Assembly: GCF_032854445.1 (NCBI RefSeq)
Contig: NC_088295.1
Span: 68,801,249 to 68,865,248 of the forward strand
Direction of reading: 5' to 3'
Source: Liolophura sinensis
Lineage: Eukaryota; Mollusca; Polyplacophora; Chitonida; Chitonidae
DNA length: 64,000 nt
Shown here one piece after another: positions 1,729 to 62,590 of the stretch (within the stretch, counting starts at the first letter, position 1; each line of letters begins with the position of its first letter). The notes below the pieces were generated by a model. That model searched no databases. It was not told where the DNA came from and saw only the letters and a list, made by a program, of their open reading frames with translations. The position numbers were made by a program, and so were the translations under genes.

Positions 1729-4700
1729 ATGGGATTTCTGGTAGTTTTACTAACCATTTTACCAACTATAGTCATCTGCCAGCATGAAGGGTAAGATTCC
1801 ACCAGACGAACAGGCTCTCTTCGTTTAATTTTATATTACGTATTATTTAGTGCTAAATGCAATGGGGAAGAAGAAAATTTCACTATAACGGAAGGGTATT
1901 TCTATCAATTTCTCCTTTTGCCGGGCGTATCCGAAGGACCAAGTGAATTCGAAAAAGTGCGTATTGCGCAAGCAAATTAGATAATATGGGCGTTACAAAT
2001 GGGTACTGGTACGTAGGAAGGCCTGTCAGCAACCTGCAATTTCCTCCTGGCTCTACGTGGTTTCCTCCCATCACAACGTCATATAAGTCAAATATTCTTG
2101 AATAAGCTCTGTTAAGCCCAGCGATATTCCCAGACCATATTTATAGGTACTCAAAAGGATACATGTATCTTCACTTATCTGTAATGAAAAATCCAGTAAT
2201 TAACACACACTGGTTGATAATTTTGTTTCAGGGTACTGGACATCCAGTTTCCCAGCATACGGGTCAGAGCCCAGCCTCATGGAAATATCTCTTTACAGGT
2301 CAGTACTTACTGTAATGTAGATTTTCGGTGTGATGACATTTTTTCTCGAAAAGTTCGCCTACTGAATCTATGTCAGTAGTCTCTTTATATAACCCTTATT
2401 ATTTTCTGCATGCGACCTTAGTCAGGTACAGGAGGTAACGTGCGTCTCACTCCAGGCAAGAATGGGAGCGTTTTCTTTGAAGATGTAGACTTGCTGGAGA
2501 TCATTGAAGTAAGTAAATATTAAAATTGATGATTTGTTACTGATCATTCGGGAAAGTACTGTTAGAATAAAGATTGCTTTCATTTGTATGGCGTTTAGTG
2601 GGTTAAACATTAAATTACCCTCATCATTAGCCGTAGTTGTTGTAGTTACCCTTAGCTTTGACATTTGGGTATTTTACAAGAAATAAAATTTCATTTGCCA
2701 CTGTCGGTGGATAAATTTTAAATTCTCTTGTAATTCGGAATGTGTTTTCAGTATATCAGAGATAATGTACCATTAAAGCCAAAGATCTCGCCTATTCAAA
2801 CTAAGTGAACATTCGGAAAATATGAGCATCTGAAGATTTAAATGGAACAGACAATAATATATAAAGTGTAATTTTATGGCAAATATTATGGATCTTTATA
2901 CCCGATCCTCTACTGTATCTACTGTATTTAATTTTGTGTTTACAAGAAGAAAGATTAACCTTTAACTAGCAATTGTCAGGAGATAGACACAGTGCGGGTC
3001 GCTGAAACATAGATTGCCTTTTGACCCTAACCTGGTTTCGTAAACATACGTTTGTGTAAACACAGTGTTACTTTTTAATAGTTATAGAGTTTACAAAGTT
3101 TTGCCTAACCGTGTAACTCGTGATACTTTTCTGTTGGATGTTACATGGAAATATCTATAATACCGAAAGCGTTGATGATTTCAGATTGTAAAGAGCTTGC
3201 CTCCAATGTGGCCGGAGCACGATTCGTCTGATAACTTGGGCGTCTTTAGAAGTGGAACGAATTTTAAGTATCAGATGATGGCACAGGTAAAAGCAGGTGG
3301 AATGGGGTGAGGTGGGGGATTATGATATAGCTATTAGAATGACATGTTTTTCTAGTAAAAGAAGGTAAACTTGTGTCTGTATTTATGTTTTCTGGAGGCT
3401 TGTAAGTGATGTGACTGTTTAGGAACTATACATATTGTATACATGGATCGGGATTTACAGTGGTGGCAGTTGTCTGAACCATGCTTGTATTGGAACTTAC
3501 AGTGGTCGCTGTTGTCTGAACCATGTATGTATTGAAATTTACAATAACTGTGGTTTTCTGAGCAATGTATGTATTGGAATTTTAAATGCAGGTGATTATC
3601 TGAACCACGTGCATGTATTGGAATTTACAATGATGGTGGTTATTTGAACCATGCATGAATTGAAAATTAGTGGTGGTGGTTTTCTGAACCACGTACGTGT
3701 TGTAATTTACAATAGTAGCGGTTTTCTCAACCATGTATGTACTGGAATTAAAATGCAGGTGATTGTTTGAACCATGCATGTACTGGAATTTACAGTGGTG
3801 GCGGTTTTCTGAACCATGTAGGTATTGTGATTTAAAATTAAGGCGGTTTTTCTGAACTATACATGTACTGGAATTTACAATGATGACGGTTGTCTGAACC
3901 ATTCATGTATTGGAATTTACAATGATGACGGTTGTCTGAACCATTCATGTATTGGAATTTACAATGATGACGGTTGTCTGAACCATTCATGTATTGGAAT
4001 TTACAATGATGGTGACTGTCTGAATCTTGCATGTATTTGGATTTACAATGATGGCGGTTTTCTAAACCATGTATGTATTGAAATTTACAGTGGTGGTGGT
4101 TGTTTAAACAATGTATGTAATGGTATTTACAGTGGTACCTGTTGTTTAAACCATGCGTGTATTAGAATTTACAATGATGACGGTTGTCTGAACCATACAT
4201 GTATTGGAATTTACAGTAGTGGTGGTAGCACACAACAAAATGGGCGCCTTCGACGGCTTGTTGACTTGAAGGCTTTACAAACAATGAGCTGTGGAATGTG
4301 TAAATGTCCTGCCCATGGCCAGGACTAAACATTCACCTCGCTTCTTAGCCATTGAGAAAAACACTTTCAAGCTAGAATGATACGAGTTTCTTCTTGTGCA
4401 TTGCAATACGTTCGTGTCTCACAAACGGAAGGATTACTTGAAATTTAAACTGCACGGGTTTACATGCGGGAAACATTTCCCATTGAAAGTGTCTTTGCCT
4501 TGACGCATATTGTATTCTCTGTGGCCACTATCCATATCGTTCACAGGAGGCATTCGTGTTCTGACGAATTAATACAGCTCTTCCTGAGCGCAGAAGGTGG
4601 GTGTCGCGTCCAGGCAGAAGATTAGGGAGATCATTCATGCGATCATTATGTTTGCATGCAGAAGTGATGGTAGTACATTGTCTAATAGAGTAATACTTCT

Positions 4701-13779: not shown

Positions 13780-16700
13780 ATTTGTTCATGTTTCAAATCG
13801 TTCATACTTTCTGGTCAGTTCTTTTGGTCCTTGTCATGCTTGTATAATCAAAAGCAAAAACAAAACAAAAAACACATGTTATGTTCATATTATGATCCAA
13901 AATTTATGTCATGTGAGGGCTATTTATAATGGGCATCTACTTTTCCTGTATTCCACTCAGCTGTTACCTTTTTTGTTCAATGTACAACCTGATGGCGTGA
14001 GCGGTGTAAGGCCGTGTATAGAGAACATCTCATACACTTCATCGTAAATACAACATTATTGCTTATAATTTGCAATGAAAAGTTGAACATGCTTCTCCAT
14101 GTTGTTTGTTAGGTTAGGTCGATGCTAATTTTATTCATCAAACTGGAATTTTGAAATTTAACTGTAGATAGTGTTTACCGGGTTGAATTGTGATTTGAAG
14201 ATTTCGTTTAATAACCAGTGACGGCAACATATTTGCAATAATTCAGAGGTTTCTACATTTGAAATTTTTTTCAACTCGTGCTTAGAGCTCCCACCTGTAC
14301 TATGTAGTCTATATTTGGTTTGGAGCACACTGAAAACTTCAAAATGCAATCGGTCTTAAAAGTACAGAGACTCTTGCAATATAGATGACTGAGCCAGCCT
14401 GGGGCTTTTTGACTAAAATTCTTGCTACGATTAAATATGAATTCCTCAAGGGCCGGAGTTCTTACAACCTTGTTTAAGGGCCCAAACGTCTGTTCCTGGC
14501 GACTTCAGACTCCAGTTTAGATTACAGGGCTGATGTATTGGCAAACTAGTGCAGCAATATTGCGGTGTGAGTGCCCCGCCATCTGGAACCGTCGTCTGTG
14601 AGAACCGCCCACGCGTACTACGTAGCTGTCCGTATAGGACATAATAACATGACTAAACCCAAAGTCTGGCTACAAGGAAAAATGATTAATGGTTTACATA
14701 GTCATTTTGTTCCCTGGCAGAAGAGAAGGACGGAGAAAATATACATTTAATAAGTTTTTCAGAAAAAAGAAGCGTTGGCTACCAAGCTTGATACGTTTTC
14801 GTCTTGATAACATTTTCCTGAGGGATAGTTGGCTGGGAAGTAAGTTATCTTTATTGACACAAGAGTACAAAGTGCACGGGAGACAGAAAAAATCATAGTT
14901 CAAGAAAATCAAATTGTCGTATAAATGACATTCGAATGTTATGACAATGCAAAAGTACTACTGATAATGCTATCTAAAACAGGCCTGTATGACTGCCATT
15001 TTCAAAGTCAGTTTGTAATCAGCTCTTTTTGCTTTTGAAAGCCCCAAGCATTAAACTGTCAACTGTCTTTTGATATTTCCGTAAAAATACACGGCAGATG
15101 TGTTGGTGTTTGACATTCGACGATATAAAACAGATCGCACTTATGAATTCGTAAAATCTGCAATGTGCAAAGTATCAAGCGATCCCCGGGGATTTCTTAT
15201 GACTTATTGTATGATTAACAAGGCTAAATATAACTGCTGAATGTGACAAGTTAAGTCATTGTTACACCCTTCTCGATTGATCGGGTCACTTACACGAGGT
15301 TATCTCGATCGGTCTCAAGCAGAACGGGTATCCAACAACAGCTCGATTCTGGGTACACATAAAGAGGGGGAAATCAATTCCGCGAGGAAACCGACGGTAA
15401 AAATAACCAAGTGTCGACACAAATAACGGCACAAAAGCGCGTTCTGGTCAGTTCGGATTTCACCCACAATTGGAAACACTTCTCTTATGATCGCGATTAA
15501 ACCACTCTCTTTCATCTTCCCCATCTAAGCAGTTATTTTATCATCAGTTGTAAAATAAATCCTGATAGGTAATTATCAACAGTATACCTACCAACGCGTA
15601 AAATAAAATGTACATGTTAGTAAACGTGTAGCGAACTCTCCAAATATTAGTCTTAATTTATTAGTAATTAATATAGCAGTGACCCTACCTGACTCTTCGT
15701 TACTAAGACACAGTCTAAAAGGTATCTCCGTATATGTTATGCTAGTGAGGGGCGGGTAATGTTAGTGGTATCTCAATAATACTCCAACATTCGCAAGCTC
15801 TGGGGAAAAAATGCATTAGAACATGTTACAGTGAAGTAAAAAAAAAAAACAAACAAAAAAACAAAAAGAAATGACAAAAAAATCAGAGGAAAGACCACTG
15901 AACAAAATATCTAAACAATCTAAACAAGTTTTACTTGTTTTATTTTTGTTTATTTTTAGTTAAATGCTATGGCGAACTTTACGAACCACACTGGTAATGG
16001 TGGCCATCATTGAAACACATTTGAAATCTAGTCTACGTCTAAATTCTGGTGAAGTGCACAAGTGTACGAGCTATTCCAGTAATAAATACAGTGTTTGGGA
16101 TGAAGAAAGTTGTGTGTCTTTTTAATCTGGCCTGAGGATAGCCAAGTATTTTGTTTGCCATGGCCAACAAAGCATGCCCAAAACGGCAAAATTAAAATTG
16201 TTATCTCAGTAGCATAAAACGAACACTTGATTTGCAACATATCATACTAAAGCTATAACTCGCGTCTTGGATCAGTGTGGCAGATATCAACTGGTGAAGG
16301 TGAGTGGTTTACTCCGAGCAGTCAGATTTCCTCTGCCAATAAACCCGACCGTCGTCATATTAGTATAAAATTATAAAAGTAAATAAATAAAATAAGGGGA
16401 AAAAACGCACTTGACTTACAGATGCATTTGTATGTTTCAACAACAGCAATAATTTCACAAATACCCTTTGTGAATCGAGGTGAATATCTGTATAATCCAT
16501 ATTCTAGGGTATAAGCAACCCCGCAAGTTGCAGGTGACACACAAGAAACTCGAAAGTAAGAAACTTAAACGTTGATCTGAGTACGGGGTAAAACACCAGT
16601 CAAATAAATATAAAAAAAACCCAACATGATTTGTAACTACAATGCCATGCATGCACCAAGCTGTGTTATGCATCTGTTTAAAACTCAGACATATTATGAA

Positions 16701-37500: not shown

Positions 37501-40500
37501 TACAAAACCCTACACCAGTGTACATCCCAGTCTCAAAAACCAAAGTGTTGTCGATTTCAAGCCTATTCACCATTTTGACCCATCAGACAGGTGACCCTAT
37601 TTCTTGTTTTTAGTGGTCTGTATGGTCTTTCCTGGTCTTCCCTGGCACTCCTTACACTCAGGTGTACAAAAGGACACCCATACAGTACAAGTTATGTCAA
37701 ATGGCATGATGCCACAGATGACACAAAACCAACGCTGGCATGACCCCTAACCTTAATGTGTCAACGATTAGTCGTCTCAGAAGACATCATGAGAGCGTGT
37801 AACTGCCCCAGACCAAGACTGCCATATTCATCTCTTCCACCTCTGTGACTATTTCAGGCCAGCCACTGCCACAACTAATGAAACAGTTGAGTTCCATAAT
37901 AATCAGATTTTCACCTGAACGGTTTGGAATCACCTCAGAGAAACAAATTTGCAAGCCCATAAGACCACTCCAGGGTATAGACCTTACCCGTGTGCGACGC
38001 CAGAGTCTGCATGACTAGGTTAACATTCATGTTCGTTGGCCTTTGGGACGATGGTGACGTGTTATGTTTTCAGACGAATCTCATTTTCAGCTACACAGAT
38101 GGGAGGCAGTGGGTTTGGGGGTAGGTAAGCACTATGCCACTGTGCGTAGGGTGCAAAACAGTGGTGGTGGGGTACTTGTGAGGGCGGGGATATGTCATGG
38201 CCATCACACTCAACTTCATTTCATCAACGTTAAGTTGAATGCATTAAGATACCTTGATGAAATCCTGCACCCAATTGTCTGGCCCCATGGGGTAACATTT
38301 CAGCTTGACAATGCCCGTTCCCATGTTGCTGTTGTATGCAGAGCATTTCTACAGGCCCAAAATGTTGAAGTGCTTGACAGGCCAGTGTATTCACCTGATC
38401 TGTTCCCAACTAAACACCTGTGGGATGTCCTCGACTGGCGTGTTCATTGGTAACTACCAGTTCTGGGTGACATTGCAGAGTTGCGTTTGGCCCTCACACA
38501 GGACTGGGAAAACATTCTGCAAGTCACAACTGATCATCTCATCTGGTCTAAGCGTCAACAATGTGTAGCAGGCAAAATGGCGGACACATTCAGTTTTAAA
38601 GTGTGGAATTTCCCAAATTGATCTCACCATTGATTCCTAACCTACCTTAGTGTTATCAGTGGTGGTCCATTTCCATCAGTTCTAGAAATGTACATTATGT
38701 ATAAGAGTCTATTTTATGTCCCCCTGGAAAAAGGTATTGAATGGAATTTGATAACGCAGTTACTTTTATCAAGATATTGCGTGTTGCGATTATTTTTTGT
38801 TCAGTTTAGATCCAATATAAAGATAAACATCAAGGTAATGTATACTTCTGCAACACTGACAACTCACGACATCATACTTGTTGCCCAACAGCAGTACAGG
38901 GATGTCACCAGCAGGCACTGGGTTCTCGTCTCTGCTCTCTACCAGACCAGAGCTGTTGGTGGTTACCTCCCTTGGCTGTGTTACCGTTGCCTGATTGAGG
39001 ACTTCCCTCCTCCACACGCCTGCCATTTCTATGCTCGTGTCATCACTCATGTCCACCACCACTGAAAACAAAACAGAGATAGAGGCTATAGTTACAAAAA
39101 CATGTGTATCTAAAACATGCTAGTGAAAGGAAGTGAAAAGGCTCCACCGTTGTATAATTGAAATATTCTTGTGTATAAAACACTAATCAAATAAATAAAT
39201 AAACATTCTCCCTCAATGAGGAGGAGGACTGCATGTTAAGAATAATAATTTGCCTAAATATTGTTTAGCCCAAAAGTGATTATGTCATCAAAGCCATAAA
39301 GGGAGTTTGACCTTGGCTCTAGTACCCTATAAAAATGTGCTACCTGTAACTGAGTATTTCTATTTACCTATGGCAGCATCCACATCCCTGAAGTAGGTTC
39401 TTCTGAGGTCCACGTCCTCTCTGCCTGGCAGATCCCACAATGTGACAGACACAATAGCATGGCCAGGGATATTCAGCTTTCTCACTGAATTCTCTGAACA
39501 ATACAAAATAAATATTGAGTGTTACACAGAAATCCATAATATTTCCCTTATACACAGGTGGTCTGGTTTATGGGAGGAGGAGACATTGGCAAAATTCTAA
39601 AGGGAACCACTGCAACACACTAGATGGTCAGCCAACCAGAGCTGAGACAAGAGGAGCTGGATTTGAACAGTTGACCTCATCGGTAAAAGAGGTTAGAAAA
39701 TAAATCACAACAAAACATTTATACCTGTCAACATTTTTATAAAATACACATACTTCAAAGAAGACTAGTAGTTGGTCAGAAATATGCCAGCTCAAGAAAC
39801 CAACACAGAAATTATCAATGCATCTAAAAGTTATCTTTAATATACATACACAATATCTGACTGTGTAGAGTTACAGGAGTATGCCAATTTTAAATAATAA
39901 ATTTTCAATGAATGTTTCAGATTGGTGTTTTAATATAATAATGCCATACTCAAAAATGTTTTCTCTTACATATAGGCGATTATGGGTGGAGGAAATAGGA
40001 GATGAATGTTTCTGCACTAGTTGTATCTTCATTCACCTTTATGCTAATTCTATTGCTCAACACAATACGACTAGAGAATCACTCCACATGAATTTTTTAA
40101 CCTTAAAGATTTATATGCTTATCTGACTGTTATTAAATGCCATACTAGCCCCAGGCAATACTCAGTAGTTTTCCACTTTACATTATTTGATGGCAGTCAG
40201 TTTTATGGACAGAGGAACTGCACAATACAAAGTGTCAGAAAGACTTACCAATGACAGGCTTCCTTGATGAGGTATAGTAAGGCACATGCTGGTTTTTTAT
40301 GTATCTTAAGAAAACGCTTGATTTACCAGACTTAGGAGCACCTGAAATAGTGAAACTACATATGTAGTAAACTGACAACACATGGATAATAAGAGCCATA
40401 AGTACTGAAAAACCAAATCTACCATGATGCAAAAAAAAAAAAAAACACATTGGTACAGAACAACTGTTGTTACATAAAGGTTTTCTTTCTTAATAAGAAC

Positions 40501-48600: not shown

Positions 48601-51600
48601 ATGTGGAAACATTTGTTAGTCAACTGTTACATGTGTGAATGTGTTGGGATGCATTCGTGAAGATGCCTTCAGCTTGAAACTAATTTATCTTACTTTCCGG
48701 TTTGTGTCAAAAATAAACCTTTAATGAAACTTGATTATTTATACCATAGAAAAATATATATAATCTTTCGAACCCTAAATATGTTAACATTATTATGAAC
48801 GCTGATGGATTATTTGGGTCTGACCGATGGTTACTGACCATACATTTTTTGTTCGAAAGCGTGCGGTATAAATACCACTCCAATGGTTATATAGGAATGG
48901 ACAGGGACCATTGAAATAATGTTATCTGTGCAATGTTGTACACATTACGTTATAAATTTTATACTGATATATAAATATATCTACACGTATATTGCATAAT
49001 TATTTTTAAAATTAGCACGGCATGAAAATTTATACCATTGCATTATTTGACATGTAGTGTAAAACAAGGAATGATAGAACTGAAACGTCTAGCACAGGAA
49101 ATTGGAAAAACTTCCGCTGAACACAACCGACAATTATTTAGCGCCTTCGGCAGTATTTTTTGAAAGTGAAATATGTATATACCTTCAGTTGATATTTCAT
49201 AATTTTATTATTGTACCTTATTCCAGTTCAAACCTTTCCGTTAATTTACAGCATATTCGTTAACATTTCAATTATCTCAGTCCCGTTACTGTTTACGGTA
49301 AACTCTCATTCTTTTTGTTTGTTTGTTTTTCGTACATTTTATCTAGGATTATATATCCGCATTCATATATGCAATTTCAGTGTAAATTTTCATGTTAACA
49401 CGTTTCCTTATGTAAGATTTTCTATTTCAGAGGTTTGAAACAAATTGTATTTGCTTATCTATTGTAATTATAAATGTTAACTTTATGAAGATCATTATTC
49501 ACACCGAAAAATTAATGCGCATTTTACATACAATAATTTTATTGAAAAAGATAAGATTTTTGTACGTGATATTCACTGTGTACGGCATCTGTTTCATCAG
49601 TAAAATGGTGTATAAACAGAATTCGTGGTCGCGCATTAACGAAGGCGGCGGACACCATAGGGAATATCTTGAAGATTCTTGGCAGACAAACAGCTGCCGC
49701 ATCTCTCCGCGAATTCACCTTCCTCATCAGCAGCCTTGTTGGCGGACAAAATGGGCGGAGTTACGGATGTGAACATGCGCACTGGAAGATGGTCAGCGGT
49801 CGATCATGGTTTGGTACTCCCGATACTTTATCATGAAGGTTTGCAGAGCCGGGAAGCCAGATGAGCGGCGAGGTAAACACACCAAGTCAAATGCAACCGT
49901 CTAATGGAGATTCGGAACGTCTATCAGTTCACCTGGCTCACTGAGTCTGTGTATATCTTACCAACTTACCGACAAATCAATACTCCACCTTACATAATTT
50001 GAAACATTTTTGATTGATAATATTCACAGTTCCAGAGTGGAATAGGTTCTTTTATCTAATACATTACTATTGGTTAAGTGACTGATTGAATGATTTTTCA
50101 ATCCACATACCACGTGTATATACCATCTCCGAGGCCAGGAGGATTCAGGTTTCTTGACAACGAGGTCGAGACATAAATCTAGGTGTATGTTGAGCACGTT
50201 TTGGAAGGACACATGCAGATCTATGCTGTTTGGCTTATAAGCAAAACACGGGTATTTTAGACTGATTGTATAGGTCTGCTATTTGAAATCCTGCATAATT
50301 TCTGCTAGGATAAGTGGAGTGCACATCTCGAGAACGTCTGCCGTTCAATTATCTTGGAGGTATCTTGGAATGTGGATTGTTGCTGTTTGTAAAGTTGTGT
50401 TGAATTCTCGAAAAATGTAGCATGTCTTGACCGGCGATGTTTCTAAGCAGTTTTGCTTTGTTCAGAAAATGTATTTTATAGCAATCTTATGTTGATGTAT
50501 TCTAATCACATAACGCATTCAAACTACAACTATATTTATAAAGAGGAAGAATTAAATCATGCAAACCAATGCGTTATCTTTTTATCTAAGTATTTATATC
50601 ATTCTCGTTGTCAAATCTGAAGAAATCTGAAGCCTCCTGGTCTCGGAGATGGTATATGCACGTGGTAGTTTCCTATGTGTATTGAAAAATCATTCAACCA
50701 GTCACTCAACCAAAAGCAATGTATTAGATAAAAGAACCAATTTCTTCCTGTTTTTATAAACCCTCTTTTAAAAACCCTAATCAGTGTAAACGTCAAATGA
50801 AGACGTCATATCCAATGGACATATGCCAACATCTGAACGTTGTATCCAATACATTATAATTACGCTTCATTTTAGGCCGAACAAACAAAGCAGTATGGGC
50901 AACTTGGCTCCGGCCTCGTACAACAAGAGTCAAGGCACCTGCTTTTCTACACCCAAGGCCGGCCAGTGGTGTGCTGCTAGAGAAATGCCTCGGACTATGA
51001 CAGGTGTTACAGTTCATTCAATAGCAGGAAGGTAGCTCACTCACACCTCTTCAGGGCCAATCTTATTGTACTGCCAGGCTTTCCGGACACAAGGTCCTAC
51101 ACACAATGAGACCCCTTGTTCAACCTGCAGGAACATTTCACATGTTGACCAAGATCAAGCGTGAATTAAATTGAAACACTTTAAAATTAACATAGAAATG
51201 GGTTGAACAGGGGTGGGGGAAAATGGACAATGTGTCTTGCCGGCAACTAGACTTTTATATGCCCAAAACACAAACAGGAAAATGTTGGCATTACACACAC
51301 AACCTCAATAATCAAGAATACAAATACTTATGAAGAGGTAAACGAACAAAGGTTAATTAAAGATCCAAAATTACCAAAATTGTAACGAGTCTGTAGAGCA
51401 CGTAAAAGTGACACTTAAGTATACCTTAGTGTGAGAAAGCGATCCTTTCTCCAGCTAGCGATACGAAATGGAAATGTCTGACCTACCTACCAAATAAGTT
51501 CACGTTTACCTTACACTGCAGTACTAAGCCAATACCTCATGCAAAACACCACTCTGTCACAGGCATCCAAAGCCAGCAGTTAGTTAACATGGTTGATCGT

Positions 51601-53154
51601 ATAACACTAGATGCTGGTATGTTGGCCTTTTGGCACCATTTGAGTTGTGGAAGGAAGGGGGGCCATTTTCCACGTCTCTGTAATGTCTGTGGCCAGCGAC
51701 AGAGGAGCTGTTTACCAGCCGTCACAGGGGAATCATCCATCACCGTATGGCGAGCTAGTCTCTTTTGCCTCATAATGGTAGGTAAAAATGAAAAATCTCC
51801 GCTCGAGTCTCTTCACATTACACCTTGAACGTTGTGCGGTCAGATAGCGTTTTGATTAATGGCTTCGGAAGAATGGTTTTAGCCGTAGATTCCATGTCTC
51901 TAGTTGGTGTCTTACGAAATCAGCCTGATGTATGCATCTTTATGTTACAATGCGTGACAAGGGACTGATATTGTCTGAAGTGACCAGTGGGTAGATTACA
52001 CCAGATAACTGTATAATACTGAACTGCATGCCACTGTCTTAATTCAGAAACTTGCTCCAACTTAGTATCTTCAATTGCCCGAAAGGCACAACTATGACGT
52101 CACTTTGCAGTTATTTGGAAACGAAGATCAAATAACGTGTATGTTGATACGCCATAGAAGCGTATATACATTCACCATCCTAGAAGAATGGAAGAAAGAC
52201 AGTTATATTATACATGTATATATTAATATATGGTAAAACAGTAATCTTGGGAATTCCCATATATCCCATTCTTCAAGTGAAGACTGTGGATTCACTATCA
52301 GCGCATCTTTTCCCCAAACTATCCAGATTTAAATACCAATGGTGATACAGAAATGTGAAATTGTCTTTGACATATAAGACGTGGGCCATTTCGATCATAG
52401 AAAACACTGCAACTTATGAAATGAAAGCTTTAGAACTTTCTGCAGTTCCGTGCATATGGTTAATGTACTTTGATGCAATCAGTGAGTTATGCAGCTCTTG
52501 TTCATCAAGGAAACCCTTTGCTATATCCATGATCAAACCATTGATTGCTCGCTCAGTGTTAAATGCTGTAGTGAGAAGTGTTTCAGTTCATAGTATGATA
52601 ATATGAATACATGGTTGCTAAAACTATTTAGCATTCCTAATTTCTGTTGAGAAAAAAGTACACGTAATAAATTGGACAGTTGACTGGAAACAAAACATCC
52701 ATCCTGTTTTTACAGAGATATGTCGAAAACGTTCCGTAGTGTTTGTGTCACACCCTTTACGCAATGGCTGAACGATGGACAGATGGCCCGATTTTATGCC
52801 GGCCTCCTATTCTTTCCATTGAGGTGGAATGAACAAAGAGCTGATTATCTGATGGCATTTTTATTTAACGAAGGTGTTATACAACTTTCGACTGCGGTCA
52901 CTTACACTAAAGGCGACCAAAAATGTTCCACTACAAATGACATCAAGTCTCCGAATATATATTTATTGCTGATTAATTATTATTGATTAATACTAATACC
53001 AGTATACCATTAAAAAGTGACAAAGTTGCCATGTATAACACAAAAACTTGTTTCAGTTCCACAAAGGACCATCGCTTGATCAGGTGATTAAAACACTGTT
53101 TCGCTGCAACTGTTATGCTCATGACCATTGAAATCACGTGTTTGGATCGACCAC

Positions 53155-53430
53155 GGTTTTATTTATTTATTTATTTATTTGATTGGTGTTTTATGCCGTG
53201 TTCAAGAATATTTCACTTATACAACAGCAGCCAGTATTATGATGGGAGGGAACCGGACAGAGCCCGGGCAAAACTCACGACCATCCGCAGGTTGCTGCCA
53301 GACCTTCCCACGTACGGCCAGAGAAGAAGCTAGCATGAGCTGGAGTTGAACTCATAGCGACCGCAATGACGAGAGGCACCCGGGTCATTATGCTGCGCTA
53401 GGAAGCTAACCAACTGAGCACCACCGTTTT
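53155..53430 (-). mobile_element. SINE-A, full length
   Basis: TTTA-repeat tail at 53157-53180, GATTGGTGTTTTATGCCGTG, CCGCAGGTTGCTGCCAGACC, GAGTTGAACTCATAGCGACC (B box in reverse) and AACCAACTGAGCACCACCG (A box in reverse). Confidence 0.9.
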
Positions 53431-53894
53431 AAGTCAGAAAATTCACTAGGTACCTGACGACGGCGGTGGTTTGTTTATAAGTGAAATTAGAAAAAGAAAA
53501 TGATAATTAAAATAATATAATTTATAGAATATTGTTGTATACTAAAAGATAGGTATGTCAGGTGCATACGTAAAACTTTCAGGTTTTTTGTCATGTTGAA
53601 CATTTTACTTGCACATGGATTTTACCTGTATGGCTTCCAATTAAGGAAAGTTGTTGTTGTCAACATATGAATTAACTACGCTTACAGCACTGATAAAAGT
53701 GAAGGAAATTCAGTTTGTTTGTTGTTCAGGGAGATCTGTCGGGTGTTCCTTAGCAGTGTATAAAAACAAGATTAATTCAGGCTTTTTAGGCGTCGTGTGT
53801 TACAAGATTTAATATTTCACGATATTATTACAATAAAACGTCAAGACGGTCAGCATGGCCCTCTTTTCACTTATGACGCAACTGGTTAAGATGC

Positions 53895-54530
53895 TCGTTT
53901 TTCAACCAAACATGATTGTGTGGGACCGATAGTTCAGACGTTTGTCATTCAATCGCTCGAGCTCATGACGTGATGGGTTTAGCTCAAATGTCGGTCCCGT
54001 GGATCTCGTCTTTCAATCGATCCAGCCTGGGGTTGGCGCAGTTGTGGGATCCGTGGTTCAGACGCTTGCCTTTCAATCGCTCGAACTCATGATGGGTTCA
54101 GCTCAAGTGTGGGACCGATAGTTCAGACGCTTGTCGTTCGAACTCCTAGCGCATTCTGATCAGTTGTAGGATCCGTGGTTCAGACGCTTGCCTTTCCATC
54201 GCTCGAACTCCTGGCATTATGGATTTAGCTCATCATGGGTTTAGCTCACTGATGGGACAGGTGATAGAGACGCTTGTCTCTCAATCTCAATAGCTCGATG
54301 GCATGAAACCACAATCATTCATTCCACAGTTCCACTAATGAGGTGATAGGTTTAGTTTATGGGACCGGTCGTTCAGATGCTTGTCTTTCAAACGCTCCAA
54401 CTCATGACATCTTGGATTTAGCCAAGTTGTTCAGACGCTTCTCTTTCAATGTCAATAGCTCGATGGCTTTTGGCCATAATCATTCATTCAATAGCTCAAA
54501 CTCATGAGGTGATGGTTCTGCCCCATTCTT
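53895..54530. repeat. Degenerate minisatellite of about 65-75 bp
   Basis: Repeated phrases GGTTCAGACGCTTGCCTTTC, AATCGCTCGAACTCATGA and GGGTTTAGCTCA recur about eight times with variable spacing. Confidence 0.75.
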
Positions 54531-54545
54531 GGACGAGGAATTATT

Positions 54546-54760
54546 CCAGTCACCAGTGCTCTCGGGGCCTTAGAGGCGATTGGATGTCAACACTCATGTG
54601 ACAGTTCTTATGGGCTAACATGAAGTTTGTTGTTCAGGACCAGAAATTGTGGAAATACTCCAGTCAACAGTGTTCTCTGGGCATTCGTGGCGATCAGAGA
54701 CGTCAACACTCATAGGACAGACAGTTCATGTGGGCTAATATTAAGTTTGTTGTTCAGGAG
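54546..54760. repeat. 114-bp tandem duplication
   Basis: The block starting CCAGTCACCAGTGCTCTCGG at 54546 is repeated from 54660 (CCAGTCAACAGTGTTCTCTG), and both copies end in AAGTTTGTTGTTCAGGA. Confidence 0.8.
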
Positions 54761-55263
54761 ATTACTTGCCTTCCATCAATATGCCACACAGTCACGCGTG
54801 GGAAAGTTCGGCAGTACCTTGCCAATGGCCGATATACTAAAACCCCATTCAACAGACCGGTTTTATGTAAGTGAAACATTCTATTGCCCTTGAACTCAAT
54901 CAAGCAACAACTACAGCATTCCGCATAAAGTCGATGTGGTCTTACACTTGTGGGTCTCGCTAAGTGAATGGCCCACGTTAAAAGCTAGTCAAAATTGACC
55001 CACCGATCCCAGGAATATGATCTGATTCTGAACTATTTCACACACCTGTATATGAATGAATCTTTCACCGGACCTTTCCATATAAGGTCATACTTTATGC
55101 AAAGAATGGAATTCATCCGATCAATGAGATCGAACATCCAGTTCAATCCTTAAAGAGGAGCTCATGGTAAGTACAACAAATCGTCCAACTTGTTACTGAC
55201 GCAAAAGTACAAATACTCTTAAAGAAAGTCAAAGACAGTCTGCAATAAAATAATTTTTCTTCC

Positions 55264-55269
55264 TTTATT
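55264..55269 (-). terminator. Distal polyadenylation signal for LIN28 homolog (candidate)
   Basis: AATAAA on the minus strand, 130 bp beyond the last miR-125 seed match. Use of this site would give a 3'UTR of about 3.2 kb. Confidence 0.4.
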
Positions 55270-55398
55270 TTTTTTTCAATATCATAACACATTCATGTTC
55301 TACTCTCCTTATATAATCTACAGATAGAAAATAAACCTGACTGCCCCGACAGGTAAGTAACAAGTCCTGATAGATTTGTAATAACAAAGTTTTAAACG

Positions 55399-55406
55399 TC
55401 CCTGAG
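55399..55406 (-). promoter_or_regulatory. miR-125/lin-4 8mer seed match
   Basis: The minus strand reads CTCAGGGA, the complement of miR-125/lin-4 bases 2-8 with the A opposite base 1; base 9 also pairs. It lies about 3.1 kb after the LIN28 stop codon, so it counts only if the long UTR is made. Confidence 0.4.
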
Positions 55407-56093
55407 ATGATCCAGCAATCGCCTAGGACTTACACATGGTGCCGGGCCAGAGTCCATTTACATACACATGGTACCTGGCCAAAATCGAATAATACAATAT
55501 ACATAGGGCCATTGGGTGACTTGTTGGCCAGGCAAAAAAACAGGAAAAAATCACAGAGGACTCAAAATTAACAGCCCTTTGCAAACAGAAAATTACCACA
55601 AAAATAAACATGGCAAAACGGTTTTATATTCAACGAGAACTACTATGCATACAATGGAATAATGTGTTATATAATAACCAAATCTACTCCACATGAAAAT
55701 AGGTTAGCCGTACAAATCAAACAAAAATACAGAGTTATGATAAACAAATAAGCATTTACCCAAGAAATTACAAGAACAGGTTCTCAAAATCGGCAGATAC
55801 CATACGTTGTAACCATGTATTATTTTCTTGATAATATTACAGCTTTGGACGACGTCTTTCATTCAGAAACGATGAGGTGGCTTTTGTGTAGTTTCATCAC
55901 TAGGGGACCTCAGCAAATCTTGTCAAGAGTACCAAAAACAAAGAGAACCTTTGGTAGGTTCACCATAACTTTACCTATCGCAGACCTGTACCAATCACTT
56001 TCACAGTGTACTTTTCATACGCCTATATTACGGCTTTAACTTTGGATTCATCCAGTTTTAGTATTTTAGTTATTTGTCTTCACCCATATGTTG

Positions 56094-56115
56094 AAAAGAA
56101 AGAAAGAAAGAAAGA
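56094..56115. repeat. (AAAG)n microsatellite
   Basis: Five AAAG units in a row. Confidence 0.9.
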
Positions 56116-56891
56116 CATGATATTATTTTCTGACATTAAGATCAAAACTAGTTTCTGTAAGTGACCAGACATATGGGTGACTGTTGTCTACAGAAAACAC
56201 CCACCCACCCTTAGTCCCACCCAGTAGAATGCCAGAAATGGCAAGGAATGGAAAGCAACCCAAAACAGTCTCTTTCAAACCCCATTGAGGCCCCCTACAG
56301 CATTCCATTATATCATTTTCTTTGGTTTCAGATCACAGAATCTCAAAATGTAAGCAGAAAATGCAATATGTTGCAGATAAATTTATAATGTTCGTTAATA
56401 ATCCCGGACATACAGTTGACTAACCTGGATTCACAATGGCGGTGATGTTATAGTAAATGACGGTAGCTGACATCAGCTCAGGTCATCTCCAAAGCTTGTC
56501 GCATAGCCGCTAGGCGGCGCCAGCAACGTTTAAATTCGAAGCCAGCGACACCTAGTGGCTGACTGCGCAGCTAAAGCTTTTCCAGCCAGATCATACAGAC
56601 AACTAGCAGACTGATACAATAAGCCAATCAAACAACTTGGCACAACCACGTTTAGGGTGTTCACGTATCACCATATACATTTCTCTCTTGAAGGCAGTGA
56701 TTTTATCAAAAGGAAGGAGCTACAAAATGCGGTACTATACTCCACGTAAACCACTTCCTCTACAGTTAAGTAACCATTACTCTGTTAATATCATTACACC
56801 AACTCATATACTCTTACGAGCACGCAGGCACACAAACAAGCCACGATCACTCATACCAACAATCGCACTGACGATTCGACAGAGCCACATG

Positions 56892-56898
56892 CCCTGAG
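56892..56898 (-). promoter_or_regulatory. miR-125/lin-4 7mer-m8 seed match
   Basis: The minus strand reads CTCAGGG, complementary to bases 2-8 of miR-125/lin-4, with base 9 also paired. It lies about 1.6 kb after the stop codon. Confidence 0.35.
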
Positions 56899-57222
56899 AT
56901 GATAGCCTCTGTACTGACAACGTTTCAAGAAATCTCGGCCATTCCCGTCCCGGCGCGAGAATTCCGCCAAATTAAAACGACAAAAAAGCGCATGGGACGA
57001 CACAATAGGCTATACACTGTTACATTCCAAGTAAAAATAACTGTTCATGCTGCCAAAATGTTTCTCATAGATTAAGTGCTGCTCAAGTGTTTAAAATAAA
57101 AAATAAATGCGCGTGTATGATGAAATGATATGCAATATACGCCAGCATATTCTAAAATGGCCATGCATGCTCTCTGTCAAGCTTCTACTAGCGTCGACGA
57201 TGGTAAAATGCTGCATACTTAT

Positions 57223-57230
<8 letters not shown>

Positions 57231-57255
<25 letters not shown>
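57231..57255. repeat. A25 homopolymer
   Basis: Twenty-five consecutive A on the plus strand (poly-U in the inferred LIN28 message). No retrocopy is visible next to it. Confidence 0.9.
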
Positions 57256-57397
57256 CGTTTTCTAGACGAAAATCTTATTTTAGGGAGACTACGCAAAAAA
57301 CATGACACAACTAAATCCACTGAGCTCCAAAATTGAGTTGAGGTTCGCCGTTTTCCAGTGAGCTCATGACACCAATACTGGGTTATGATGAATATAA

Positions 57398-57416
57398 GAG
57401 GTAGACTTGTATAGTT
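57398..57416 (-). promoter_or_regulatory. let-7 target site with seed and extended 3' pairing
   Basis: On the plus strand GAGGTAG (57398-57404) equals let-7 bases 2-8 and TTGTATAGTT (57407-57416) equals let-7 bases 13-22, separated by two bases instead of four. The leftward LIN28 message therefore pairs with let-7 over a seven-base seed and ten 3' bases with a small internal loop, as in classical let-7 sites. It lies about 1.1 kb after the stop codon. Confidence 0.7.
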
Positions 57417-57516
57417 TGATAACGGGGACCGAGCCCACACAGAATTTGCTGCCAACAATGAAATACCTTTCTCCTTAAGGACAATGGATATCTACACAGT
57501 ATAGTTTCTGTACAAA

Positions 57517-57523
57517 TGAGGTA
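57517..57523 (-). promoter_or_regulatory. let-7 7mer-A1 seed match
   Basis: The minus strand reads TACCTCA (bases 2-7 plus A1). A short stretch complementary to let-7 TTGTAT lies at 57537-57542, offering weak 3' pairing across a larger loop. Confidence 0.4.
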
Positions 57524-57807
57524 TGGTCTAGAGACCTTGTATTTGCACACCTTTCCCATCAAAGGCCCATTTATGCTTAACGCCGGTGAAATACTTAGAA
57601 GGAGCGACAACAACTACAAAGCGATAAAGCTAGATAGCGAGCAAGCGGGTAGGCAAACGTTTTAAAACTGCAATATAATCAAGCCAGTGGAGTGCCGAAA
57701 ACATGAAACACTTAATATGCATTCTTGGATGAGTTATAAACGTTGTCGGTGACTTTAGAATGTTGCAAGAGTTTGGCTGACATGAATGTGGCTATATGGT
57801 ACAGAAA

Positions 57808-57813
57808 TTTATT
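57808..57813 (-). terminator. Proximal polyadenylation signal for LIN28 homolog (candidate)
   Basis: AATAAA on the minus strand about 690 bp after the stop codon, just beyond the first let-7 site. Its use would keep only the site at 57830. Confidence 0.4.
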
Positions 57814-57829
57814 CTTTTGGGGTTAAAAT

Positions 57830-57837
57830 TGAGGTAG
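57830..57837 (-). promoter_or_regulatory. let-7 8mer seed match
   Basis: The minus strand reads CTACCTCA, a perfect 8mer (bases 2-8 plus A1) for let-7. It lies about 665 bases after the LIN28 stop codon and is present in both predicted UTR lengths. Confidence 0.6.
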
Positions 57838-58502
57838 AACAATTTTGAAGGGGATGGAAACTCGGAAACCCTCATCCACACCTCGAGTACCATTCTCGTC
57901 CCCAGGAGAGACGATTCGCCCCTGCCTTGAGAAACTTCCTTCTTCATCCCTCTCGTCCCCTGCTGAGATTTACGGTTTATCACCACTTCGAAGACATATA
58001 TATTTATCAGCCATTTCGACAGGGTGTGTATAAAATGGCGATTTTACCCGTGTGGTTCGAATGCCAATACTGAATCTGTTTCCTTTCCCTCTAATGTCAT
58101 ACATCCACAACATACAATACACGGCGAATGTTCAAGCAAAAACAAACAACATCCATTTCTCATAACAACACCCTCCAATACCAAGTAAGTCCAAGGAGAC
58201 ATTCGCTTTGAACAATAATCGTCACGTGACTGGTCAAAACATTCACACTTTGTCCACGTGACCATGGCGTCACGAGCTTGCAGAACTACATGCAGTCCTG
58301 CATTGATCTCATTACATTACCTCACACGTGATGACGTCACTGCTTCTGGTCGACGTAGCAGTTTATTTCTTGGACATATATTGATGTCAGATAATTGATC
58401 TCAGCACAACTAGCAGTGTCTCCTATAGCAGACAGTTTCGGTTCCATTTGACACGGACATTTCGGGAGCAGGTTCCTGATAATGTTCCTAGAGACCTTCT
58501 GG

Positions 58503-58728
58503 TCAAACGAGACCTTGGCCCATTCCAGAAAATCCCTCATTACCATTACTGTCGTTGCCATGGTCACCAGATCGGCTTCCGTTACTTCCGCTCCTCCTAG
58601 AGTTGTCCTTCTCGGGGCAGTCCGCGATCAGATGGTCGGTGGACTTGCAGCTGTGGCATCGTTTTGGAAGAGGACCATGGGGACATTTGGCAGCCATGTG
58701 ATTCCCGAAGTCACCACAGTTATAACAC
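58503..58728 (-). CDS. lin28: Last exon of a LIN28 homolog: tandem CCHC zinc knuckles
   Basis: The minus strand has a clean acceptor (TATTATTGCAG ending at 58729) and encodes 74 residues to TGA. The first knuckle is CYNCGDFGNHMAAKC and the second, ten residues on, is CHSCKSTDHLIADC, joined by the linker PHGPLPKR. The order, the linker with its PKRCH and the closing DCP are those of LIN28, whose knuckles bind the GGAG motif of pre-let-7 and block its processing. The second knuckle fits CX2CX4HX4C; the first has five residues before His. A Ser/Gly/Asn-rich tail follows. The exon is entered in phase 2, consistent with Arg before CYNC. The cold-shock-domain exons are not seen to 64000 and should lie beyond the edge. 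Nuclear/cytoplasmic RNA-binding role is from the family. Confidence 0.88.
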
Positions 58729-62345: not shown

Positions 62346-62590
62346 TTGGGGTCATTTATTTATTTATTTGATTAGTGTTTAACGCCGTTCTGAAGAATTT
62401 TTACTTTTATGACGGCAGGGAACCCGGAGTAATGCTCGGAATAAACCACCGCCCTTCACCAATTACCAAAGAAACCCACTAACACAAAGCCGCAGCCGAA
62501 ACAGTGAGAGCTGGATTCGAATACGCGGTCTTTTTGGTCAATAACCTGAAAGTCGCATTGAGCCAGCGCTTTAATCACCTGATCCACTGA
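62346..62590 (-). mobile_element. SINE-D, tRNA-derived, with SINE-A-like tail
   Basis: The tail TTTATTTATTTGATTAGTGT followed by TTAACGCCGTTCTGAAGAAT resembles SINE-A. The body (GGAATAAACCACCGCCCTTC, CAAAGAAACCCACTAACAC) and the head (GAGCTGGATTCGAATACGC B box in reverse) differ. Related pieces are at 31855 and possibly 39545. Confidence 0.65.

Follow-up and report, generated by a model that had tools for sequence, protein, structure and literature searches.

A candidate let-7 response element with extensive 3′ pairing in the presumed LIN28 3′ untranslated region of the chiton Liolophura sinensis

We propose that a short segment downstream of the LIN28 gene of the chiton Liolophura sinensis, at positions 57398–57416 of the 64-kb stretch of DNA analysed here (the window), is a let-7 response element of the seed-plus-3′-pairing type (site 1). 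The element would lie in a long LIN28 3′ untranslated region (3′UTR) and act within a bistable LIN28/let-7 switch, a reading to which we assign a probability of about 0.8 on the basis of the sequence. LIN28 blocks the maturation of let-7, and let-7 represses lin-28 in nematodes and mammals, which makes the pair a textbook timing switch. Site 1 is accompanied on the same strand by additional let-7, miR-125 and miR-9 sites (Table 1), which were absent from a preliminary description of this DNA.

Its domain order marks the host gene as a genuine LIN28: a cold-shock domain precedes two CCHC zinc knuckles. The zinc-knuckle exon has a splice acceptor immediately upstream and ends with a stop codon at 58503–58505 (minus strand); its best match to a LIN28 structure in the PDB has an E value of 8.8e-10, and 21 of 44 residues are identical to a LIN28A probe. 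The cold-shock domain was not found inside the window, and two upstream exons carrying it were found in the sequence beyond. Spliced by hand, these exons give a protein of 167 residues that starts after the first exon, which was not located. This protein matches LIN28A (PDB 8ops) with an E value of 4.2e-35 in an alignment that spans both knuckles, and its Pfam matches to CSD (8.3e-21) and Lin-28A-like_zf-CCHC_2 (3.9e-07) both exceed the cut-off. A look-alike, such as another CCHC protein, was rejected on the strength of the cold-shock and Lin-28A-like zinc-knuckle matches and the LIN28A E value. Within the genome, the zinc-knuckle exon has a single match, which is itself.

The message is read from the minus strand; the plus-strand letters at 57397–57416 are AGAGGTAGACTTGTATAGTT. 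The preliminary description had reported a 7-base seed match plus ten contiguous bases over a 4-versus-2 loop, 17 pairs in all, downstream of a LIN28 homologue. This pairing proved exact on the minus strand, and the site lies 1,087 bases past the stop codon of the genuine LIN28 gene. The ten contiguous pairs engage let-7 bases 13–22, and bases 9–12 are unpaired and face two target bases. let-7 base 1 does not face an A, which makes the seed (57398–57404) a 7mer-m8; it is one of two perfect matches to let-7 bases 2–8 on the message strand, the other being at 57831–57837. RNAduplex gives site 1 an energy of −22.1 kcal/mol, compared with −35.6 kcal/mol for a perfect complement; because 52 of 2000 shuffled let-7 tails attain −22.1 kcal/mol, the energy alone is less extreme than the pairing. 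The 3′ helix is AU-rich, with −9.1 kcal/mol for the 10-mer and −10.1 kcal/mol when neighbouring bases are included. Predicted accessibility places the seed of site 1 at the 79th percentile.

Site 1 could instead be functionless, either a chance complementarity or a segment beyond the true end of the LIN28 mRNA, which we consider unlikely. Seed matches alone are common in the window, which contains five for let-7 (3.8 expected) and four for miR-125 (3.95 expected), but sites as long as this one are not: about 5e-6 are expected in the 3,261 message-strand bases after LIN28, and 2.1e-4 in both strands of the window. These expectations follow the density of a reversed control pattern, which matched twice in the genome (609,464,459 bases in 632 contigs). 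The true pattern, GAGGTAGN{0,6}TTGTATAGTT, likewise matched twice, at the let-7 gene and at site 1; both counts are from a DNA search that skips some common words. A looser form of the pattern is GAGGTAGN{0,9}TTGTATAG. When the stretch was shuffled, 13 of 323,100 positions (about 4e-5) had a 10-base let-7 tail match within 12 bases. The 621 bases surrounding site 1 match only themselves genome-wide and are thus unique DNA, and an origin of the site from a repeat was rejected on this ground.

Another reading takes its cue from the plus strand, which departs from let-7 solely by a change of TAGG to AC and at the first base: the segment might be a decayed or young antisense copy of a let-7 gene and no target site at all. 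We give this almost no credence. The stretch from 57385 to 57475 lacks a let-7-like hairpin (fold z 0.36), and the same 621 bases have no second match in the genome, not even at the let-7 locus. Rfam searches gave no gathering-level match in the window and, around the site, no let-7 match up to an E value of 10. The plus strand at 57340–57430, which encloses site 1, is indeed predicted to fold with unusual stability (z −2.79, equalled by 2 of 200 shuffles), but this fold pairs the site with itself and with bases just upstream, and offers no let-7 star arm. A let-7 pseudogene or antisense hairpin was rejected on the basis of these folds, the Rfam search and the let-7 match searches.

As a let-7 response element, site 1 would be reached by a LIN28 transcript with a long 3′UTR. 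Between the LIN28 stop and position 55,000, the message strand carries AATAAA at 58362, 57808 and 55264. The first two signals are nearer to the gene than site 1 and favour an mRNA end short of it: a transcript ending at 58362 would be without any of the listed microRNA sites, and one ending at 57808 would retain, of these, let-7 site 2 alone. Use of the nearer signals could thus also produce isoforms that escape let-7 site 1. Against an early end, the strand skew persists to about 54.8 kb. Within 50,000–58,500, the G+T share of the plus strand has its change point at 54,773 (54.6–55.1 kb), and 5 of 1000 block permutations gave a change as strong; no other break in the right part of the window is as strong, and over the whole window the strongest is at 14,857. 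Minus-strand transcription to about 55 kb fits both this change and the distal AATAAA with its U-rich downstream sequence. The two features suggest, circumstantially, that the LIN28 transcript passes let-7 site 1.

Table 1 Features of the LIN28 3′ region, in the direction of the message.
Feature	Position	Strand	Basis or remark
LIN28 last coding exon: both CCHC zinc knuckles, C-terminal tail and stop	58503–58728	−	translation; PDB LIN28 matches
Presumed long LIN28 3′UTR, running past the poly(A) signal at 55264–55269 (exact end approximate)	55245–58502	−	AATAAA; strand skew
Proximal AATAAA, about 140 bases past the stop	58362–58367	−	signal scan
let-7 site 2, 8mer seed match	57830–57837	−	3′ match of at most 3 bases; 57808–57813 signal 16 bases further on
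Middle AATAAA	57808–57813	−	signal scan
Possible let-7 site 3, 7mer-A1, weak alone	57517–57523	−	most accessible of five sites tested
let-7 site 1	57398–57416	−	pairs let-7 2–8 and 13–22, loop 4 versus 2
miR-125/lin-4 site, 7mer-m8	56892–56898	−	seed match
miR-9 site, 8mer	56319–56326	−	seed match; miR-9 hairpin in genome
miR-9 site, 7mer-m8	55949–55955	−	seed match
miR-125/lin-4 site, 8mer	55399–55406	−	seed match; predicted poorly accessible
Distal AATAAA, most likely of the three to mark the long 3′UTR end	55264–55269	−	U-rich sequence downstream

The microRNA sites of the presumed 3′UTR include a let-7 8mer that lies 433 bases closer to the LIN28 stop than site 1. Predicted accessibility is middling overall: this 8mer falls at the 51st percentile, and of the other sites the let-7 7mer-A1 (97th) and the miR-125 7mer (64th) rank above it and the miR-125 8mer (15th) below. 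In the segment 57517–57550, which includes let-7 site 3, a small hairpin (GGUC UCUA GACC) separates the seed match from AUACAA, 13 bases upstream of it, and could place AUACAA 3′ pairing beside the seed. The extra match is not significant, as tail matches of at least six bases occur at 2.1% of shuffled positions.

We compared the number of sites from 58500 to 55240 with that expected for 43 microRNA families, which, together with their sequences, were hand-picked; the P values cover 7mer-m8 and 8mer sites only, and the 3′ end of the tested region was set when the distal miR-125 seed was already known. let-7 and miR-125 ranked joint first, with two such sites each against an expectation of 0.06–0.10 (for each family, 1 of 400 shuffles, and P 0.003 over 3000). 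miR-9 ranked third (P 0.0075 over 400 shuffles and 0.013 over 3000), and the next families, miR-8 (P 0.04 and 0.03) and miR-2 (P 0.04 and 0.05), were mildly high. The distal part, 57789–55240, taken by itself, was enriched for miR-125 (P 0.0017) and miR-9 (P 0.007), with let-7 at only 0.054; the first two values speak against a LIN28 mRNA that ends before site 1. Among three control stretches of equal length, the best family was bantam in the antisense stretch (P 0.008, the only family there below 0.1), miR-153 in the intron (0.19) and miR-252 downstream (0.15), so that in the latter two no family reached P<0.1. When windows of 3,261 bases were slid along the DNA, 16 of 1,215 on the message (minus) strand held at least two let-7 and at least two miR-125 seeds, compared with 0 of 1,215 on the other strand. 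All 16 cover the LIN28 3′ stretch, since the strand has three seeds of each family and one of each is near 24 kb.

Several other features were noted in the window. A SINE-like interspersed repeat is present at 53165–53213 and 62354–62402, where a TTTATT run is followed by GATTGGTGTTTTATGCCGT; the two copies are 86% alike over 49 bases, and we take them to resemble the RUDI/V-SINE elements of molluscs. A 53-base unit (around GTTCAGACGCTTG) occurs at 53915–54406 as six diverged, irregularly spaced copies. The open frame at 38058–38453 matches the DDE_3 endonuclease domain (E 3.3e-11) and is probably the remnant of a Tc1/mariner-like element. At 3442–4215, a 42-base unit is repeated in tandem about 18 times and is partly in frame as a 14-residue protein repeat (CIGIYNDDGCLNHS), for which Pfam gave no match.

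The microRNAs that would act on the LIN28 mRNA are encoded in the same genome. An exact 22-base let-7 lies on the minus strand of C1, flanked by miR-100 and miR-125 in one cluster; no other exact let-7 gene turned up in a 15-base exact search, a method blind to diverged copies. All three fold into hairpins (miR-100 −38.8, let-7 −37.7 and miR-125 −48.4 kcal/mol), and a miR-9 hairpin (−42.7) is found on C8. Of these three cluster stretches, only let-7 contains GGAG, located on the 3′ side of its hairpin loop; in the pre-let-7 loop, this motif is presumably the element bound by the LIN28 zinc knuckles. A 15-base let-7 match on C7 was rejected because it diverges after TTGTAA and lacks a let-7 hairpin fold, as were two further miR-125-like matches (C10 and C11) with no miR-125 hairpin fold. 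Scanning the let-7 locus for tRNA genes gave no hit, and the 19-base core of miR-1985, a mollusc microRNA, had 0 matches in the genome.

These elements can be arranged into a circuit. As development proceeds, let-7 and miR-125, encoded in one cluster, would increase. let-7-loaded Argonaute would then bind site 1 and the 8mer nearer to the stop, provided that the transcript reaches them, and miR-125 would bind the two distal sites in the LIN28 3′UTR; translation and abundance of the LIN28 mRNA would be expected to drop. In the opposite direction, LIN28 protein would bind the GGAG-bearing loop of pre-let-7 and block its maturation, so that LIN28 and let-7 together may form a bistable developmental switch. 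The preliminary description had suggested that the double-negative loop is encoded here too, and the sequence elements of both arms are indeed present: let-7, miR-125 and miR-9 sites on LIN28, and GGAG in the let-7 hairpin loop. As to the timing, figures given in a study of another mollusc, the rapa whelk, have reads of miR-100, miR-125 and let-7-y peaking after metamorphosis, and a passage elsewhere in the text of that paper has let-7-y decreasing (PMC5714496). Our guess is that the let-7-y label may refer to the other hairpin arm.

The extensive 3′ pairing of site 1 also raises the converse reading, in which the site acts mainly in reverse and the LIN28 mRNA triggers target-directed destruction (TDMD) of mature let-7, as an RNA arm beside the LIN28 protein. 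As one review describes it, most validated triggers share the architecture seen at site 1 (PMC10899785): a seed and at least six contiguous 3′ pairs from base 12–13 with positions 9–10 unpaired, realized here as ten contiguous pairs from base 13 with bases 9–12 open. Those triggers typically have an 8mer seed, and site 1 is a 7mer-m8; known 3′ helices range from −9.6 to −17.1 kcal/mol, and the AU-rich helix of site 1, at −9.1 to −10.1 kcal/mol, sits at the weak edge of that range (PMC10899785). Furthermore, in the HSUR1 tests that this review cites, pairing to the terminal bases, as occurs at site 1, raised tailing and did not lower the microRNA (PMC10899785). We therefore regard a predominantly let-7-destroying role as very improbable. 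A broader proposal would combine both directions: by complementarity, LIN28 would be the strongest let-7 partner of the animal; its mRNA would be silenced by let-7, miR-125 and miR-9 and, through the 17-pair element, would also trigger the destruction of mature let-7; and the action of this microRNA trio on lin-28 would descend from the bilaterian ancestor. We offer this only as speculation and think it improbable. If it were true, one LIN28 mRNA would attack let-7 twice, as RNA and through its protein.

A lin-28 mRNA regulated by let-7 and lin-4 is of a known kind, and the putative let-7 response element described here would be, to our knowledge, a new instance. Among the literature matches listed, as judged from titles and the beginnings of abstracts with partial coverage, there was no account of such regulation of LIN28 in a mollusc or annelid. 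Site 1 is an exact target for reporter testing and for comparison across species.

Its closest parallels are in nematodes and vertebrates. According to a comparative study (PMC13286352), the let-7 and lin-4 sites of C. elegans lin-28 are semi-redundant, and in the Elegans group a lin-4 site comes after a let-7 site; here, too, let-7 sites come first and miR-125/lin-4 sites after. Unlike in C. elegans lin-28, at least two let-7 sites and two miR-125 sites are spread over about 2.4 kb, and one of the let-7 sites has 10 contiguous 3′ pairs. In this last respect site 1 is like the let-7 sites of C. elegans lin-41, in which a seed-region match is joined to long 3′ pairing over a small central loop. 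The lin-41 sites have imperfect seeds, unlike site 1 with its perfect match to bases 2–8.

In vertebrates, the same three families recur on the 3′UTRs of LIN28A and LIN28B. Two reports give let-7/LIN28B and miR-125/LIN28 as predicted targets conserved in four or more of the five species human, mouse, chicken, fly and worm (PMC2833159) and, for the mouse retina, list Lin28b with let-7, miR-125b and miR-9 together with luciferase assays (PMC9918188). Unlike vertebrates, which have two LIN28 genes, this genome gave one LIN28 match and, by the 15-base exact search, one exact let-7 gene. Many Caenorhabditis species are reported to have no let-7 site in lin-28 (PMC13286352), which bears on how far the let-7/LIN28 switch is ancestral. 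A well-formed set of sites for let-7, miR-125 and miR-9 on the LIN28 of a chiton, whose genome also encodes a let-7 hairpin bearing GGAG, speaks for a circuit of ancestral origin.
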